From: Cyclobacteriaceae bacterium | Lineage (GTDB): Bacteria; Bacteroidota; Bacteroidia; Cytophagales; Cyclobacteriaceae | Length of the DNA: 64,000 nucleotides | Direction of reading: 5' to 3' | Assembly: GCA_019638395.1 (NCBI GenBank) | Contig: JAHBTX010000002.1 | Coordinates: forward strand, 124,001 to 188,000 | Shown: in pieces, positions 1 to 22,890 of the stretch | Layout of the letters: every line of letters starts with the position of its first letter | How positions within the stretch are numbered: position 1 is the stretch's first letter | Program-made: the position numbers and the translations under genes | Notes under the pieces: generated by a model | The model's input: the letters and a program-made list of their open reading frames with translations, nothing else | Database searches by the model: none | What the model was told of the DNA's origin: nothing

Positions 1-534
1 CACAAATGCAATTCCTGTGGACAGCGCTACAAGCGTATCCATGTTTGCTTTACCGTGTCTGGCTTGCTTCCAGGCATTCACGAAGAAGTTGCGACCAAAA
101 TAAAATACAACGGGCGCGGTCAACATCATAGAAATGTATGTTCCATAAGGCATGTCCATAAAAAACATTCCTATCACCACCACTGGTATTGAAAAGATAG
201 TAGACCAGATTGTGCGTTGCTTTACGGCTTCATAGTGTTTTCGCTGCGCTTCTTCCTGAACGGCCTGTGGGTCTTCCACGTTCACCACTAAGTCATAACC
301 GATCGAGCGAACTGCATTTTGAAGATCAGCGGGTTGAGAAACGGAACTATCATACTCTACCCAAGCAGATTGATTGGCGAAATTCACGCCCGCGTCTTTT
401 ACACCAGTAGTGGTTTTCAGAATGGACTCGACACTTACGGCACAGGCAGCACAGGTCATTTCCAGCACAGGAAATGTTTCGCGTTTAACTTTCGATGTTT
501 TGTTTTTAGTAATTGTTAGGGTATCCGGAGACAT
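1..534 (-). CDS. copA: Copper-translocating P-type ATPase, N-terminal part (runs off the left edge)
   Basis: Only the first 178 codons are in the window; the frame is open to base 1. I translated it from the ATG at 534-532. The N-terminus holds a heavy-metal-associated domain with the Cu(I)-binding motif MTCAACA (C28, C31). It is followed by a linker and the first membrane helices (a hydrophobic stretch near residues 107-125, then a second one). This order is typical of CopA-type P1B ATPases, which pump Cu(I) out of the cytoplasm. The phosphorylation and ATP-binding domains lie outside the window, so metal specificity rests on the CxxC motif and on the copper-related neighbours. The gene lies 86 nt downstream of the HMA-AraC regulator on the same strand and is probably co-transcribed with it or controlled by it. 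Confidence 0.88.
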   Translation of the reverse strand, partial: MSPDTLTITKNKTSKVKRETFPVLEMTCAACAVSVESILKTTTGVKDAGVNFANQSAWVEYDSSVSQPADLQNAVRSIGYDLVVNVEDPQAVQEEAQRKHYEAVKQRTIWSTIFSIPVVVIGMFFMDMPYGTYISMMLTAPVVFYFGRNFFVNAWKQARHGKANMDTLVALSTGIAFV

Positions 535-620
535 AAGGTTATGCGCTTGTTTTATAAATGCAAGTATACAGTGAAACTTATCTTTGGGATTTGCACTTTA
601 GCGGTTACTGTTTACATGAT

Positions 621-1208
621 TCACAATTCTGCAACAATCTTTTTGATTAGGTTCTTCTTCTCGTTTCGTAGAGACTTGAAATGAGAAGGCGTTAGACCTG
701 TCAGTTCTTTGAACTGCCGCGATAGATGATGAATGCTATTGAATCCCGTGATGTAGGCTATTTCTGTTAGAGTAAATTCGGTGTAAACCAATAGCTCCTT
801 AACCTTTTCAAGTCGTTTTGTTATGATGTATCGTTCCAGCGATAAACCTTCCGTTTCGGAAAATGCCTGACTGATAGCGTCATAGTTCATATGAAGCGTA
901 TCTGCCAGCAATCCTGAAAACCTGACCTGTGCGTCATATTGAATGTTCTGATTGAAAACATCATCTATTACTTTTTTGACTTGGCTGACAATTTTATGTT
1001 GTCGGTCAGTAATCAACTCGAATCCGGCATCTGCTAAAAACTTGGAAATCTTGTTCTTATCTTGTTTTGAAAGGTTCTTATCAAAAACAACACGCCCTAA
1101 ACTAATGCGCTGAACAACGTGCCCCAGATCCTCCAGGCCTTGTTTGATTACAGAAATACAACGGTCGCACACCATTCCTCTAATCAATAGTTGATTCGCC
1201 TTATCCAT
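621..1208 (-). CDS. AraC-family regulator with N-terminal heavy-metal (HMA-like) domain, copy 1
   Basis: This 195-residue protein begins with a beta-alpha HMA-like segment carrying MVCDRC (C14, C17). A middle region follows, and then a C-terminal AraC-type double helix-turn-helix (about residues 105-185, with the pattern TLTEIAYITGFNSIHHLSRQFKELTG). AraC proteins activate or repress nearby promoters. An HMA fold on the sensing side suggests direct Cu(I) or other soft-metal sensing, which is inference. It sits directly upstream of copA on the same strand. A paralogue with the same architecture lies at 1572-2147. The family is common in Bacteroidota and usually annotated only as AraC; I know of no detailed functional study. 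Confidence 0.87.
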   Translation of the reverse strand: MDKANQLLIRGMVCDRCISVIKQGLEDLGHVVQRISLGRVVFDKNLSKQDKNKISKFLADAGFELITDRQHKIVSQVKKVIDDVFNQNIQYDAQVRFSGLLADTLHMNYDAISQAFSETEGLSLERYIITKRLEKVKELLVYTEFTLTEIAYITGFNSIHHLSRQFKELTGLTPSHFKSLRNEKKNLIKKIVAEL

Positions 1209-1335
1209 AGTGTTATCATTCGTATAACAAAAGTCGGTTGCGTAGCAGCCAAGGGTGTTACACTATACCCGAAAAGAATTATAGAATTTCATACGGCAAT
1301 TCAAGCGTTTGGGAATCTTTTGTGTATTTATTTTT

Positions 1336-1564
1336 ATGAACACTATAGAAATGAAGAGATCGCTTAGGGTAGCCTTAAGTCCTCATTTGAAGAATCTTAG
1401 AGTAGCGAAGGCAAAAATGTCTGACCGGGAATTTGCCGGTTTGGTAGACTAGTTTCAGTCAAAAATTGTTGAGCAATCCCGAGGCATACTTAGCAGGTGT
1501 GGGCGATTCCCACCACCTAAAATTAACTATTGAGAGCATCATTGATGAGATTGCTGAAAGTTAA
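1336..1564 (+). pseudogene. Frameshifted small gene between the two HMA-AraC regulators
   Basis: This stretch fills most of the 363-nt gap between the two regulators and lies on the opposite strand. Frame 1 gives a 38-residue start from the ATG at 1336, ending in DREFAGLVD and a stop at 1450-1452. Frame 2 then continues, starting FSQKLLSNPEAYLAGVG near 1454 and ending in IIDEIAES with TAA at 1562-1564. A single-base shift near 1444-1453 would join them into one protein of about 76 residues. The phrase 'KLLSNPEAYLAGVG' loosely recalls leader-peptide-like small proteins, but I cannot assign a family. It could be a decayed gene or a sequencing error. The rest of the gap (1209-1335) holds only regulator upstream sequence. 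Confidence 0.45.
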
Positions 1565-1571
1565 GTGAGGT

Positions 1572-2147
1572 TTAATTGATATTGTCCAGAGGTTTGCGCT
1601 TCTGGTCAATGTCTCTTGACTTCTTTAATTCGGAGGGGGTAAAACCCGTCACTTTTTTAAACTGTGCTGATAGGTGAGCCACACTGCTATAACCCAGGCG
1701 GTCGGCTATTTCACTGAAGTTTAGTTCGGCATAGAATATCAGCTCCTTTACGCGTTCAATTTTTTGGCGAATGATGTATTGCTCTAATGTAATACCCTCC
1801 ACCGAAGAGAATAGATTGCTCAAGAGGTTGTAATCCACATTCAATTCTTCGGAAAGCATCGTTGACCAATTGAACTTTAGGTTCACCGATTCTGCCCGAT
1901 GGATTTTCTGAATTACAATATTCTTGATTGATTCAATCAATCTAGCCTTGCGATCATCTATTCGTTCAAATCCCAGCGTTACCAAAGAGGTATCTAAGCG
2001 ACTTAGTTGCGTATCATCGAGGTGACTTTCTTCGAGACTAACCTCACCCAACGACACTTTTTGTGGATGCAGCCCCTGCTTCTCCAACTCTTGTTGCACT
2101 ACTAAAATGCAACGGTTGCATACCATGTTTTTGATGTAGAGGGTCAT
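1572..2147 (-). CDS. AraC-family regulator with N-terminal heavy-metal (HMA-like) domain, copy 2
   Basis: This 191-residue paralogue of the 621-1208 protein has the same plan: an N-terminal HMA-like segment with MVCNRC (C10, C13), a middle linker, and a C-terminal AraC helix-turn-helix pair (FSEIADRLGYSSVAHLSAQF, then KKVTGFTPSE). The two copies agree through most of their length, so they probably arose by duplication. Its start codon lies 3 nt after the stop of the tyrosinase gene on the same strand, so the two form a tight operon. A metal-sensing role is inferred from the CxxC motif and the copper-enzyme partner. Whether it controls its own operon or copA is unknown. Confidence 0.87.
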   Translation of the reverse strand: MTLYIKNMVCNRCILVVQQELEKQGLHPQKVSLGEVSLEESHLDDTQLSRLDTSLVTLGFERIDDRKARLIESIKNIVIQKIHRAESVNLKFNWSTMLSEELNVDYNLLSNLFSSVEGITLEQYIIRQKIERVKELIFYAELNFSEIADRLGYSSVAHLSAQFKKVTGFTPSELKKSRDIDQKRKPLDNIN

Positions 2148-2150
2148 GGA

Positions 2151-3143
2151 TTAATCTGCCCAGAATGGACTAATGGGTTGCCATGAAAAATCAGTAATGT
2201 CAAAGGATTTCATACTCTTTTCGTAAACCACTCCTAGTTTGGTATTGTCCAGGGTTTCTTCTACCGTCAATTTAAATGGAGCAAGTACATCCTTAAGATT
2301 ATGACCCTTCGGGCCACCGCTGACTGGCACATAGTGTGGAGTGGCTTCCGGATTGTTTATTTTTTGGATTTCCTGCCAATCGGCCCATACTTTATCCACG
2401 TAGCAGTGGTGCAAGAAAAATACGGGGTCGTTCGGTGATGTCATAGGCATCATAGAACCGCCCACCCAGAGATGAACGCGGTTGTGAAGTTGTGAGCCAT
2501 CGGTTTTAACCCGATAGTCACCGCGTTTAGTAATCCATCCCTCCAATCTGTTTCTGAATCCGATGGTGAAAGGACTATTGTTAGAATTGGGGACATCGTA
2601 GAATGCTTCAGTCATGGCCAAGCGAAGATCGTCTTCATTTGGCAGTGTGTCGATGGAAATATTTCCTGCTTTAAATCTTCCTAAGCTACGCCTGAGTTCA
2701 GGACCCGCATCATCCATTACAATGTTCCAGTTACCCATCGTAAACGCAAATGCTCCTGATTCAACAATATTTGAGTTTGTTTCGTTTCCATCTCCCCCCA
2801 TAAAATTCTTATCCCAAATAGGGGCAGATTTTGGATCAGGAAGTTTTGAGTCAGCCACCCAGTCCCAGTAAGGTATTGTAACGGACTTGTCAATTTGTTG
2901 AAGATCGTTTTCCACAGCTTTCAAAAAAGCCCGATGCCAAGGCAAGAAAGCTGGCCCGCGATGGGCACCATTTCTGTAGTTAGGATCGTTGGGCTCATTA
3001 GGGAACACCGTTGGTATCATGACGTGATGATGCCAATGCACATACTGGTCATACTTGCCCTGTTTCTTTAGCTCAATCAAAGCGTTAACAAATGTCTTTT
3101 TCTCCGCATCGGATAAAGCCGCTATACTTTTTCTAATATTCAT
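2151..3143 (-). CDS. Tyrosinase (type 3 dicopper monooxygenase)
   Basis: The 330-residue protein carries both copper sites of the tyrosinase family. CuA ligands lie in VHWHHHV (about H38-H40) and in HRGPAFLPWH (H61, H70). CuB ligands lie in HNRVH (H220, H224) and DPVFFLHH (H246 region). Tyrosinases hydroxylate monophenols and oxidise o-diphenols to quinones, leading to melanin-like pigments. No signal peptide and no C-terminal caddie domain are visible, so this is a short cytoplasmic form or one exported by another route. It leads an operon with the second HMA-AraC regulator. Only 32 nt separate its start from the integrase stop codon, and a TATTTTTG box lies in that gap. Confidence 0.93.
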   Translation of the reverse strand: MNIRKSIAALSDAEKKTFVNALIELKKQGKYDQYVHWHHHVMIPTVFPNEPNDPNYRNGAHRGPAFLPWHRAFLKAVENDLQQIDKSVTIPYWDWVADSKLPDPKSAPIWDKNFMGGDGNETNSNIVESGAFAFTMGNWNIVMDDAGPELRRSLGRFKAGNISIDTLPNEDDLRLAMTEAFYDVPNSNNSPFTIGFRNRLEGWITKRGDYRVKTDGSQLHNRVHLWVGGSMMPMTSPNDPVFFLHHCYVDKVWADWQEIQKINNPEATPHYVPVSGGPKGHNLKDVLAPFKLTVEETLDNTKLGVVYEKSMKSFDITDFSWQPISPFWAD

Positions 3144-3163
3144 GGTTGTAATGTAATCTTAGT

Positions 3164-3171
3164 CAAAAATA
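3164..3171 (-). promoter_or_regulatory. Candidate -7 promoter box for the tyrosinase operon
   Basis: Read on the minus strand this is TATTTTTG, an exact match to the Bacteroidota -7 consensus TAnnTTTG. It lies 20 nt upstream of the tyrosinase ATG (3143). No TTTG -33 element is seen at 19 nt, so support is from the -7 box and position only. Confidence 0.45.
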
Positions 3172-3175
3172 CAAA

Positions 3176-4435
3176 CTATAATTGAGTTGAGATTTGCGTG
3201 ATTGATTTGGACTCGTTTGTCATCTTAGATCTAAGGAGTTCCATATCCTTACTGATTTTCTTCTGCACAATCTTTCCGTAAATCTGAGTGGTGCGAATGT
3301 CTGTATGCCCCAGGAGTTCCATAGTCGTTTCCATCGGTACATCGTTAGTAAGGCACACTGTTGTTGCAAATGTGTGGCGGGCTGTATGCGTAGTTAGCTT
3401 CTTCTTAATACTACATAAGTCAGCTACCTCTTTGAGATAACCATTATAGCGTTGATTACTGTTAAGAGGCAGCAATTTGCCATGCGTTTTACAGTAAGGA
3501 TGGTTTTTATACTTCTCTACGATTTTCAACGGTATCGGTAGCAGCGGGATATTTTCCACAGTATCTGTTTTTTGTCGATCCCGAATGATCCACTTTCGCC
3601 CGTCTATCCCTATTGCCACATGCTCTGGCCCTAGGGCTTCAGCATCAGAATAGGCATAGCCAGTATAACAACTAAAGATGTAGCAGTCTCGCACCTCTTC
3701 AAGCCGCGCAACAGGCATCGGTTTCTCATACATTCGGTGCAACTCTTCATCGTCTAAAAATTCACGCTTTGTACGTTTATATGTACACTTGAAGTCAGCA
3801 AATTTATTAGAGGGTACATACTCCAATGTAACGGCATATTTCATTACCTGCTTGAGGTCTTTAGCGTACTTCATTGCTGTGTTGTGTCCAATCTTTTCAA
3901 TCGTTCTCAGATATTGCTGAAACTCGGTGATGAAATTCAATTTGGCTTCGTCAATCAAGATATCAGCTTTCTTCATTTTGTGCTTGAGGAAGGCGATACA
4001 TTTGCCTCTGTTCACTTTAAACCGATCATAGCGCCTTTGCTTGATGTCACCTGCTTCAACTTTATCCTTTAAATGAGTTAGGTATTGCTCGAAAATTTCC
4101 AATAGTGTTTTTCGTTCTGGCTTAATCCCTTTGTAGCTGTTTTTTACGTCTTCAGACGTGACATATTCTTGAGTCGTTGCTAAGATGTGGTAATGCTTGG
4201 TGATTTCGGCCTCGACCAATACCAGATGTTTGTTTATTGCTTTCGCATCTGGACAAATATTTGAAACACAATTATTAACGGTATCCCAATGCGAGGGTGT
4301 TACTTGCTTCAATGCAGACACTTCTGTGCGTCTACCGTCAATGGTAATCCGTGCCCAGATAGGTACAAGGCCATGGCTGTTTACTTTTCTTTTGTTCAAC
4401 CAAAAGTTGACGCTGAATTTTTGACTGAGGTTCAT
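3176..4435 (-). CDS. Tyrosine recombinase / integrase of the Bacteroidota mobile-element type
   Basis: This 419-residue site-specific recombinase has an N-terminal arm-binding region, a SAM-like core-binding domain (about 110-215) and a C-terminal catalytic domain. Visible catalytic residues are K289 (RQKT), H350 and R353 (HTARH), H377 (LLGHTDI) and the nucleophile Y386 (QIYGK). The usual first arginine of the TGLR motif is alanine here (TGYAYSD, A261); loss of that arginine is known in some Bacteroidota integrases such as IntDOT. It lies 222 nt from the 3' end of a tRNA-Lys gene, a classic integration target, with repeated words in between. It therefore probably catalyses integration and excision of the copper island to its left. 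Confidence 0.93.
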   Translation of the reverse strand: MNLSQKFSVNFWLNKRKVNSHGLVPIWARITIDGRRTEVSALKQVTPSHWDTVNNCVSNICPDAKAINKHLVLVEAEITKHYHILATTQEYVTSEDVKNSYKGIKPERKTLLEIFEQYLTHLKDKVEAGDIKQRRYDRFKVNRGKCIAFLKHKMKKADILIDEAKLNFITEFQQYLRTIEKIGHNTAMKYAKDLKQVMKYAVTLEYVPSNKFADFKCTYKRTKREFLDDEELHRMYEKPMPVARLEEVRDCYIFSCYTGYAYSDAEALGPEHVAIGIDGRKWIIRDRQKTDTVENIPLLPIPLKIVEKYKNHPYCKTHGKLLPLNSNQRYNGYLKEVADLCSIKKKLTTHTARHTFATTVCLTNDVPMETTMELLGHTDIRTTQIYGKIVQKKISKDMELLRSKMTNESKSITQISTQL

Positions 4436-4511
4436 AGTGTTTTACAGTTATGGTTTACCTCGTCCTTTGAGGATGCGGGCAGAATGAAACTGAAAACCTT
4501 ACGTAAGTTCT

Positions 4512-4556
4512 GGTGACCAATGTACGTCACGACCATTGGTCACCGGATTGGTCACC
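4512..4556. repeat. Three ATTGGTCACC iterons between integrase and tRNA-Lys
   Basis: GGTGACCAATG (4512-4522) and CATTGGTCACC (4534-4544) form a perfect 11-bp inverted repeat around an 11-nt spacer. A third copy, GATTGGTCACC, follows at 4546-4556. The two direct copies are 12 nt apart. Lying just upstream of the integrase start and beside its tRNA target, they could be integrase or excisionase arm sites, or an autoregulatory operator. Confidence 0.6.
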
Positions 4557-4657
4557 TAAAGGATGGTTTTGTTTGTTGTTTTTTGGATTCCCTACCTTCG
4601 AAATCAGGCTAAAAAATAGGGCATGAAATGAAAAAGGGACCAATGAATGGCCCCTAG

Positions 4658-4730
4658 TGATCCCGCTGGGACTCGAACCCAGGACCCATACATTAAAAGT
4701 GTATTGCTCTACCGACTGAGCTACGAGATC
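4658..4730 (-). tRNA. tRNA-Lys (anticodon TTT)
   Basis: Read on the minus strand, a 7-bp acceptor stem pairs GATCTCG with CGGGATC (one T-G pair). The D arm holds GCTCAGTCGGTAGAGC and the anticodon loop CTTTTAA has anticodon TTT. The T arm is GGGTTCGAGTCCC and the discriminator base is A. No CCA is encoded. The 3' end points toward the integrase, as expected for a tRNA used as an attachment site. Confidence 0.97.
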
Positions 4731-14819: not shown

Positions 14820-15743
14820 CTACACAACCGGAAAATGTACTTCGGTTACCTGCTCGTTTTCAGCCGCGCTACCCGGCATGGTGTTATAGGTTTCAAAGGG
14901 ATCAATCCCCTTTTTCCATTTAAAAACTTTGGCTTGTTGCAGGTTGTACTGTGCACTCCAGGCATTGCCTAGGTGTTTGTAATTTCCGATGTGGGTTATT
15001 GTGTTTACCTTAATTGCGGGTATGGTTCCGGTTATGGCCCCGGCCGGTACGTTTGCAGGTATAGACTTTATCGGAAACGCTGCCGTATAAATAACCTCCT
15101 TTTTCACAACATCCCATTTATGGTAAATCGAAAAAGGAATTCCGTTGAGTGAGCCTGGGTTATTATTATTCCAGCTAAACAGCTTGCCAAAGTCGGCTTT
15201 CATTTTTTCATCAATGGCATCCATTGCACAAGTGGTTTTAAAACCTATGTAGGTGCACCCGGCAAAATCGGTAATACCTTTAAAGGTAAGGTTGGACGGA
15301 ACCGCACCAGTCTCCAGGTAATCCTTCAGCATAAGTAGGCCTCGGTTATAATCCATGCCAATGTAGGCTGTCATCATCTTTTTCATGAAGAATAAAAAGA
15401 AAGGCAGGCTGCCATTCATACACCACGTAAGGTGGGTGCCAGTGGTAGTTGGCTTAAGTTCAAACCAGGTTGAAGAGGTGGACTTCCATGGTTTCAGAAA
15501 TGTAACTTGTGTATCCAATCGCTGGGCTGGATTTTCGCTGGTGATTTTCATTTCGCCACTGCCAGTACGCTTGCCATCCCAGGTATAGTGCTTACCTCCG
15601 GGCGCAACCGTTACTTTTGATTCTGGTTCCAGTATAAGCCAGGGCGACCACACACGCCAATTATGAAAGTCGGCTAAGAAAGCATACACTACATTGGGTG
15701 ATACGTTAATCTCAATTGATTTTTCAACATGAAAGGCAGGCAT
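14820..15743 (-). CDS. SRPBCC domain fused to GyrI-like effector-binding domain
   Basis: The 307-residue protein has an N-terminal polyketide-cyclase/START-like domain (about 1-145, starting EKSIEINVSPNVVYAFLADF) and a C-terminal GyrI-like small-molecule-binding domain (about 155-290). Both halves bind hydrophobic ligands in other proteins. No catalytic motif is evident. The following Crp/Fnr gene is co-transcribed, so a ligand-responsive regulatory module is possible (inference). A weakly basic stretch near 115-130 is not a convincing membrane helix. Confidence 0.8.
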   Translation of the reverse strand: MPAFHVEKSIEINVSPNVVYAFLADFHNWRVWSPWLILEPESKVTVAPGGKHYTWDGKRTGSGEMKITSENPAQRLDTQVTFLKPWKSTSSTWFELKPTTTGTHLTWCMNGSLPFFLFFMKKMMTAYIGMDYNRGLLMLKDYLETGAVPSNLTFKGITDFAGCTYIGFKTTCAMDAIDEKMKADFGKLFSWNNNNPGSLNGIPFSIYHKWDVVKKEVIYTAAFPIKSIPANVPAGAITGTIPAIKVNTITHIGNYKHLGNAWSAQYNLQQAKVFKWKKGIDPFETYNTMPGSAAENEQVTEVHFPVV

Positions 15744-15829
15744 AGCATATGGGGTTTATGTGAAGGTATTAATTTGTTCTGAATTTTATATTTTCGAGGA
15801 TAGTATTGGTAGTACAACCTAACTTTATA

Positions 15830-16438
15830 ATGAAACTTTCTCTATTTATTTTGTTGGTAGTTGGCTACCAAACACAGGCACAACCGGATTCCACAGCCAT
15901 TATTCGCGAGGCTAAAAAATTTCAACAAGAGTTAAACCGATCTTACCAAAATAAAAAGACCTCGCCCCTTAACCCTGCCGACCTTCGAAAATTCAAGCAG
16001 CACGATTTCTTTCCTATTGCTACAAACTATGCAGTTACGGCCAAGGTTACTTTAACACCCAACACACCTTACAAACCGATGCCGGCAACCGGCCCAATTG
16101 TAAATAGTTACAGGGCGTTTGCATTACTTGATTTTGAATTGGATGGTCAACCCTGCCAACTCACACTCTATCAGTCGAAAGAATTAAACAACAACCCCGA
16201 ATATCACGATTATCTTTTTCTTCCTTTTACAGATCAAACAAGTGGCAGCGAAAGTTATGGAGGTGGCCGCTACCTGGATATGCGAATTCCGGAAGGTGAT
16301 ACAATGGTAATAAACTTTAACCTTGCTTATAATCCATACTGTGCCTACAGCACACGGTACTCATGTCCGCGGGTTCCTGCCAATAATCATCTGCCTGTGG
16401 CTATTAAAGCGGGGGTACGATTCAAATCAGAATATTAG
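15830..16438 (+). CDS. DUF1684-family exported protein
   Basis: From the ATG at 15830 the protein has 202 residues, with a signal peptide (LFILLVVGYQTQAQ). The conserved DUF1684 motifs are visible: FKQHDFFPI, YRAFALLDFELDG, YGGGRYLDMR and FNLAYNPYCAYS, the last near the end. The family has no assigned function. The longer frame from 15806 adds residues that spoil the signal peptide, so I choose the second methionine. Confidence 0.87.
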   Translation: MKLSLFILLVVGYQTQAQPDSTAIIREAKKFQQELNRSYQNKKTSPLNPADLRKFKQHDFFPIATNYAVTAKVTLTPNTPYKPMPATGPIVNSYRAFALLDFELDGQPCQLTLYQSKELNNNPEYHDYLFLPFTDQTSGSESYGGGRYLDMRIPEGDTMVINFNLAYNPYCAYSTRYSCPRVPANNHLPVAIKAGVRFKSEY

Positions 16439-16466
16439 AAGCATGATGATGCTGAGACAATTCCTG

Positions 16467-16664
16467 TTACTTGAAAATATTATACTTAGCCACCATTTGT
16501 TTGTAATGGGGCATCAGTTTTTCGTAGGCAGCTTCATCAGCTTTTTTCAGCATGTTCATCAACCCTCCAATGCCGGAATCTTTCAAGCTTACTTTTTGAT
16601 TTTTAATGTCTTCCATCTTCAGGCGGATGGAGGCTTCCAGTTTGCGCAGGTCGCGTTCGGTCAT
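16467..16664 (-). CDS. Small conserved-looking cytoplasmic protein, 65 residues
   Basis: The product starts MTERDLRKLEA and is charged and helical, with no signal or membrane segment. I do not recognise it. The start at 16664 is chosen over 16670 because it gives better spacing (19 nt) to a TACCTTTG promoter box at 16691-16684. It is convergent with the DUF1684 gene. Confidence 0.6.
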   Translation of the reverse strand: MTERDLRKLEASIRLKMEDIKNQKVSLKDSGIGGLMNMLKKADEAAYEKLMPHYKQMVAKYNIFK

Positions 16665-16683
16665 AAACAAAGTTGGTATAGTA

Positions 16684-22835: not shown

Positions 22836-22890
22836 TTTTGAGATTCTTTTCGCGCCTACTCTTCTTCGGATTTTCGGCTTACTCCGTTAT

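Follow-up and report, generated by a model that had tools for sequence, protein, structure and literature searches.

The window analyzed here, 64,000 nucleotides from a Cyclobacteriaceae bacterium (genome G000, assembly GCA_019638395.1; contig JAHBTX010000002.1, hereafter C12, positions 124001–188000), begins with 4.7 kb that a first-pass annotation had read as a copper-themed island carrying a tyrosinase at a tRNA-Lys gene. Our comparison with other genomes (G numbers) revealed that this span is almost certainly the right end of an integrative and conjugative element (ICE) that targets the 3' end of tRNA-Lys and preserves an intact tRNA there. The same comparison traced both ends of the ICE, its movement between species, the position of the tyrosinase gene in a predicted operon with the regulator HMA-AraC 1, and the conservation of the putative catalytic residues of the enzyme. 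We consider it probable that a copper-sensing operon recruited this phenol oxidase, which would serve copper-induced quinone and melanin protection. The features of the right end are the following.

1–534, minus strand: 5' part of copA (P-type ATPase, N-terminal HMA), 177 residues in the window, Pfam HMA 3.8e-13
621–1208, minus strand: HMA-AraC regulator 2, 195 residues, Pfam AraC helix-turn-helix
1572–2147, minus strand: HMA-AraC regulator 1, 191 residues, starting 3 bp past the tyrosinase stop codon
2151–3143, minus strand: tyrosinase, 330 residues (Pfam 7e-43, NCBIfam, PDB), present or absent in sister ICEs
3163–3175, minus strand: promoter-like element TTTGTATTTTTGA, directly past the integrase stop codon
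3176–4435, minus strand: integrase, the tyrosine recombinase of the ICE, 419 residues (Pfam Arm-DNA-bind_5, Phage_int_SAM_5, and Phage_integrase)
4656–4679, no strand: attR core AGTGATCCCGCTGGGACTCGAACC; its partner attL, with one mismatch, is found left of the window (C12:1281–1304)
4657–4730, minus strand: tRNA-Lys (TTT) (ARAGORN and Rfam), the site of integration, still whole at the right junction
1–4679, no strand: right-hand 4.7 kb of the ICE; the remainder of its 127,375 bp (C12:1305–128679) lies left of the window

Leftward from the tRNA, the order on the minus strand of 1–4730 is tRNA-Lys, integrase, tyrosinase, HMA-AraC 1, HMA-AraC 2, and the start of copA. The complete copA gene encodes 750 residues (C12:122282–124534), and its portion C12:122282–124000 lies left of the window. 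The first-pass annotation had listed the same genes, and Pfam, ARAGORN, and Rfam agreed with it, the HMA part of the regulators being recognized through a motif and a structural model; its statement that the 3' end of the tRNA-Lys points to the integrase holds by coordinates.

Ends and movement of the element

A second attachment site had been predicted to the left of the window, detectable as a direct repeat of the tRNA-Lys 3' end. We searched C12:1–188000 by BLAST with 260 bp around the tRNA end and obtained one outstanding second match, at C12:1281–1304 (E 3.8e-5), in which 23 of 24 bases are identical. The two copies form a 24-bp direct repeat with one mismatch, 127,375 bp apart, and positions 1–4600 of the window hold no copy, as the first-pass annotation had stated. 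ARAGORN detected no tRNA at C12:1281–1304. The attL copy comes after its own hairpin GTGCCTCAGAAAGCATTTTCTGAGGCAC, as expected of a displaced tRNA terminator, and hairpins with a similar stem are found 3' of tRNA-Lys in G047 and G008.

If the left repeat were a chance match or a decayed tRNA, the island would be far shorter, consisting of this end plus copA. The T-loop sequence is common to tRNA 3' ends generally, and contig C12 stops 1,280 bp beyond the left repeat, so that the left chromosomal flank falls outside the comparison. However, an exhaustive count on both strands of C12:1–128600 found the left repeat to be the sole match at ≤7 mismatches in these 128.6 kb, and conjugation genes start just inside it. 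The same terminus, ATTAATATAACCTG, stands at the matching place in G052, where the element ends at the same base and the flanks differ from those in G000, and G070 has a copy with 3 mismatches on a separate contig; in total, the terminus is present in 3 of the 62 genomes of the genus. We regard a fortuitous or decayed left repeat as highly improbable.

Between these ends, Pfam matches were obtained for eight of ten submitted conjugation-region proteins and for none of the other two. Near the left end lie RadC, TraM (3.7e-60), TraJ (2.5e-19), a TraG P-loop protein with DUF3875 (P-loop_TraG, 2.6e-229), and DUF4134; farther right are a coupling protein (YWFCY and T4SS-DNA_transf, the latter 3e-21), a relaxase (1.5e-28), and MobC. 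The element has sequence hallmarks of an ICE, namely a terminal integrase beside the attachment site, flanking direct repeats, a relaxase with a coupling protein and genes for type IV secretion, and an occurrence at the same site in another species. Insertion is presumably carried out by the tyrosine recombinase of the window, whose orthologues face tRNA-Lys in G052, G061, G070, G062, and G072. A phage source of this integrase is disfavored, since the 36 phage records that match it all do so at <60% identity. GC content was uninformative (43.1% in the ICE, 42.0% in the 59 kb to its right, and 44.1% in the tyrosinase gene).

A second species, G052, carries the same ICE at the same tRNA-Lys. Six collinear BLAST blocks totaling ~93 kb, the first at the left terminus and the last at the tRNA, are 93.8–96.5% identical (pieces >400 bp, shorter ones being dropped; a seventh piece, of 413 bp, was a secondary match), whereas identity is only 74–76% in the chromosome on the right side of the tRNA, indicating that the ICE moved. 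The simple reading would be a recent exchange between G000 and G052. The two copies differ in ~7 kb of G000 that is swapped for ~10 kb, in 21 kb that is extra in G052, and in 27 kb of G000 that is missing there. These data bear out the earlier proposal that the genes travel together. The island was correctly taken to be mobile, but it is an ICE about 27 times longer than the 4.7 kb given; an island of 4.7 kb only is ruled out by the distant repeat and by the collinear element in G052.

The first-pass annotation had also suggested a comparison with relatives whose tRNA-Lys is empty. We located the gene right of tRNA-Lys in 48 of 58 genomes of the genus and fetched 30 loci. Eight of these, including that of the window, have an integrase relative in the sequence retrieved 3' of the tRNA (up to 1.4 kb), at 100, 98, 98, 69, 44 (over 160 residues), 38, 35, and 22% identity. 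Longer stretches of G012, G023, G017, G008, and G047 contain no integrase relative, and other open reading frames (ORFs) reach near the tRNA; the first four were counted as empty sites, and G047, with 4.7 kb only, was left aside. The tRNA-Lys is thus used repeatedly for integration and stands empty in several relatives. Such relatives were found, but from the right side only, because C12 ends so close to attL and because none of the eight tRNA-Lys loci checked matched the ORF left of attL (C12:350–1102) at E ≤1.

Two candidate left neighbors of the site were rejected. The first, dnaE, is ~9 kb to the left of the element in G052, but its position is not constant across the 14 genomes searched; the second, a luciferase-like gene, was found on the left side of tRNA-Lys only in G012 and G023 out of 11 genomes searched. 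In G052, a 46-residue repeat of the dnaE end, 91% identical, is located at C20:56515–56652, ~4 kb to the left of the element, and is perhaps the scar of another insertion. In G019 (C22), a related integrase (69%) lies left of tRNA-Lys with other neighbors, read as ArsR-like, rhodanese-like, and MFS genes.

Tyrosinase gene, operon, and enzyme

The order integrase, tyrosinase, HMA-AraC 1, HMA-AraC 2, and copA is found at tRNA-Lys in G000, G052, and G070. In G062, G072, and G042, the order is integrase, HMA-AraC 1, and copA, with neither a tyrosinase nor a second regulator (the G042 integrase match covers the C-terminal quarter only). G059 (C16:149–151 kb) shares this short order; the 15 kb retrieved contain no tRNA, and a tRNA-Lys lies ~39 kb off on the same contig. 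The right end is also present in G061, where the contig stops just past the integrase, placing it outside the tally. Over the seven ICE ends, the tyrosinase and HMA-AraC 2 covary, both being present in all three carriers and neither in the four others. An unrooted FastTree phylogeny of regulator plus copA groups the three carriers, so one gain or one loss suffices; by copA alone, G070 is closer to the non-carriers (88–89%) than to G000 (79%), and the integrase is equidistant. The tyrosinase is an accessory, very probably either captured into the operon by gain or lost in the sister ICEs, as judged from these gene orders. Of the copper set with a tyrosinase described in the first-pass annotation, the integrase, HMA-AraC, and copA genes recur at tRNA-Lys in the sisters, but the tyrosinase is no fixed member, and we rejected it as a constant part of the island on account of the three sister ICEs at tRNA-Lys that do without it.

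Directly past the integrase stop codon, the element TTTGTATTTTTGA precedes the tyrosinase in G000 and G052, and TTTGTATCTTTGA stands at the same place ahead of HMA-AraC 1 in G062, G042, G072, and G059; TTTGTATYTTTGA is common to all six. It includes TAnnTTTG, which we take to be the −7 box of Bacteroidota promoters. The 13-mer has one match in the window compared with 0.01 expected. Speaking against a promoter here, G070 has the variant TTTTGTATTTTTAA, and a looser form, TTTGTANNTTTG, appears in 41 of 100 shuffles. The tyrosinase lies between this element and HMA-AraC 1 with the frames intact in three ICEs, and 3 bp separate its stop codon from the ATG of the regulator, suggesting that both should share one transcript upon copper sensing. 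HMA-AraC 2 is situated between copA and an intergenic region that directly precedes copA in G062 and G072; the matching pieces of this region are 17–101 bp long and 84–100% identical at corresponding positions.

Residues 2–312 of the tyrosinase match the Bacillus megaterium enzyme (PDB entry 3nm8, 7.1e-67). Candidate copper-ligand histidines were assigned by motif as His-38, His-61, His-70, His-220, His-224, and His-245/His-246, and they are invariant in five of five homologues; the printed 3nm8 alignment begins at residue 64, and the motif is the basis for His-38 and His-61. Glu-201 and Asn-221 align with Glu-195 and Asn-205 of 3nm8, as counted on the alignment, and the pair is kept in the five homologues, including that of Singulisphaera. 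Such a Glu/Asn pair marks monophenolases. The protein is accordingly predicted to have both the six copper ligands of a tyrosinase central domain and the monophenolase pair.

The Singulisphaera homologue (62%) is probably SinATYR, because it is the only tyrosinase match in that genome. SinATYR of Singulisphaera acidiphila (UniProt L0D705) is active on L-tyrosine (kcat 5.55/s) and L-DOPA (21.9/s) (PMC10515480). Its host differs in being a planctomycete, and no integrase or HMA-AraC gene was seen by eye among ORFs of ≥120 residues within 10 kb.

Several observations weigh against a protective role in copper defense. Strong tyrosinase homologues are rare, being found in four of the 62 genomes of the genus (100, 98, 88, and 86%), with weak matches in a fifth, G056, and in two genomes of the order; within the class, the window's own is the only one among 149 genomes. 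In G073 (C1, ~1.003 Mb), the tyrosinase (88%) lies beside tra genes with no integrase, HMA-AraC, or copA in the examined stretch, which suggests a rearranged or different ICE. The sister ICEs that lack the tyrosinase indicate that it is not needed, and a cytosolic tyrosinase could harm rather than protect.

Alternatively, the tyrosinase may be a passenger, a phenol oxidizer that happened to land behind a promoter adjacent to the integrase, a common event for cargo genes, and is linked to copper only through its cofactor. Integrase-adjacent genes do differ among the sister ICEs, the G073 gene lacks these copper neighbors, and homologues are frequent on plasmids (111 records, mostly Rhizobium, Streptomyces, and Sinorhizobium, all at <60% identity). 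The Singulisphaera enzyme was moreover investigated in the context of wetland phenols (PMC10515480). A mere passenger would nevertheless have to account for the placement between promoter-like element and sensor with a 3-bp gap and intact frames in three ICEs, for the joint gain or loss with the second HMA-AraC gene, and for the Singulisphaera relative, which by our reading likewise lies near an RND-type pump (≤2 kb). We hold the passenger explanation to be unlikely, although not negligible.

The protein could also act mainly as a cytosolic copper sink, with the protein or its pigment buffering copper and catalysis being secondary. Sequence inspection revealed no hydrophobic signal sequence at the N terminus, and the histidine motifs are invariant, both compatible with a sink. 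Conversely, a storage protein would not need Glu-201 and Asn-221, the residues associated with monophenol hydroxylation, and enzymatic activity is documented for a tyrosinase from the species that has the 62% homologue. A copper sink therefore seems quite improbable to us. Recruitment of the phenol oxidase by a copper-sensing operon remains our preferred reading.

HMA-AraC regulators

The AraC helix-turn-helix is the sole Pfam match in both regulators, which have the C-terminal double helix-turn-helix, and the Pfam HMA model has no match at E ≤1e-3 in either. Assignment of the N-terminal half to HMA is putative and draws on two lines of evidence. The motif MVCxRC is present in six of six aligned proteins and in all 30 best-matching HMA-AraC loci of the genus, and an AlphaFold model of the 191-residue regulator displays a β-α-β-β-α-β order in residues 2–63 that aligns to copper chaperones, with Z scores that are modest only.

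Gene neighborhoods point to copper. At 24 of the 30 loci, copA (20 loci) or a Cus-type cluster (four loci) lies ≤1.5 kb downstream; seven of the 30 are the ICE ends described here, and without them the count is 17 of 23. Two results tell against this assignment and against a tie between regulator and enzyme: six of the 30 loci have no copper gene nearby, and G060 (C60) has two tandem HMA-AraC genes before copA in a genome without a tyrosinase match, so a second regulator can occur apart from the enzyme. On balance, copper is likely to be the inducer of the sensor operon. At a contig edge in G014 (C52), an HMA-AraC gene (76%) is found near a MerR-like gene and a gene for a small cysteine-rich membrane protein, not copA, perhaps in a mercury context.

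HMA-AraC genes are widespread, occurring at E ≤1e-25 in 80 of 149 genomes of the class and in 62 of 100 genera. Like CueR, CsoR, CopY, and CusRS, they combine a cysteine motif in a cytosolic regulator with a gene position near copA; they differ in their AraC-type DNA-binding half and in a putative sensing half with a copper-chaperone-like fold. The open-access literature searched yielded no paper joining AraC with HMA as a copper sensor. A survey of copper genes in Bizionia argentinensis, also of the Bacteroidota, lists MerR, CopY-type, and two-component candidates and, in its accessible part, names no convincing cytosolic copper sensor; a term search did not find the word AraC in that text (PMC11213822).

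The genome of the window also has a chromosomal cluster (C1:113070–118288) with its own HMA-AraC gene (66% to that of the ICE), an HMA membrane protein, and a CusA-like pump in one frame of 1058 residues. The host therefore probably had a copper defense without the ICE. The CusA-like pump of the ICE, located left of the window at C12:75479–78697, is split by comparison into two adjoining frames (77411–78697 and 75479–77407).

Cargo, known systems, and proposed role

Judging from domain matches, much of the cargo appears to serve the efflux of copper and other metals. Pfam matches were found for nine of ten cargo proteins chosen by appearance and for none in one. With copA, the ICE encodes three P-type ATPases (the others at C12:54757–56925 and C12:79348–81351), along with a multicopper oxidase, two RND pumps, an aquaporin, two redox flavoproteins, and a cation-efflux protein whose HMA match falls below threshold. 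By our reading, the ORF list further contains HlyD- and TolC-type partners, a two-component pair, and an ArsR-like gene. PADLOC models matched two AbiE pairs (one AbiEii of only 107 residues), a type IIG restriction enzyme with RmrA, and PDC-M29A, leaving one of eight proteins unmatched. The restriction enzyme, the RmrA-like gene, and one AbiE pair lie in the segment C12:16638–23732, which is replaced by other DNA in G052, and the second AbiE pair (15737–16671) sits just outside it. An ORF reading of C12:36957–45963 gave a SusD/SusC-like pair with anti-sigma-like and sigma-factor-like genes. Elsewhere in the window, Rfam placed a DUF805b cis-regulatory RNA at 22853–22887 on the minus strand (43.2 bits).

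The ICE resembles the CTnDOT-type elements of Bacteroidota in its Arm-DNA-bind_5 and SAM_5 integrase, its relaxase with MobC, TraG with DUF3875, CtnDOT_TraJ-family TraJ, conjugative-transposon-family TraM, DUF4134, and YWFCY coupling protein, and it differs in the tRNA-Lys insertion and the metal-efflux cargo. Regulation of CTnDOT is tetracycline-linked. A precedent for a tyrosinase on mobile DNA is MepA of Sinorhizobium meliloti, where copper induces melanin with a contribution from the plasmid-borne enzyme and a defensive role is described; joint loss of the tyrosinase and a multicopper oxidase makes the bacterium more sensitive to Myxococcus predation, and copper accumulates at the zone of contact (PMC7010606, accessible part). 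MepA differs in its plasmid location and alphaproteobacterial host, and that part of the paper mentions no HMA-AraC operon; the plasmid homologues are, as noted, distant. The accessible parts of open-access papers matched on tyrosinase and ICE described no tyrosinase-carrying ICE of this type.

We propose that the HMA-AraC sensor would detect copper, whereupon a single transcript would yield both tyrosinase and regulator. With copper as its cofactor, the tyrosinase would convert phenols such as tyrosine/DOPA into quinones and melanin, by which copper-reducing catechols may be removed and a pigment formed that may bind copper and quench radicals. Such protection would act beside CopA, the RND pumps, and the multicopper oxidase. 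We infer melanin as the product, and a copper-protective role of the enzyme appears to us evenly balanced between likely and unlikely. The earlier suggestion of a role for the tyrosinase in copper handling or pigment formation stays an inference, to which the operon position and the published link between copper and melanin lend support.

A metal-resistance ICE is of an ordinary kind; a phenol oxidase inside a probable copper-sensor operon is unusual. Because the same integrase, sensor, and copA end occurs with and without the tyrosinase at the same tRNA, selection of phenol oxidation in copper defense becomes testable. Tentatively, and with less than even confidence, we suggest that HMA-AraC proteins form a widespread class of Bacteroidota copper sensors for which our open-access search found no print record, that the sensor promoter of the ICE is a landing place that recruited the tyrosinase, and that copper-induced melanization may be transferable by conjugation. 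The prevalence and the copper neighborhoods of HMA-AraC genes also make HMA-AraC a candidate for the main copper regulator in Bacteroidota.

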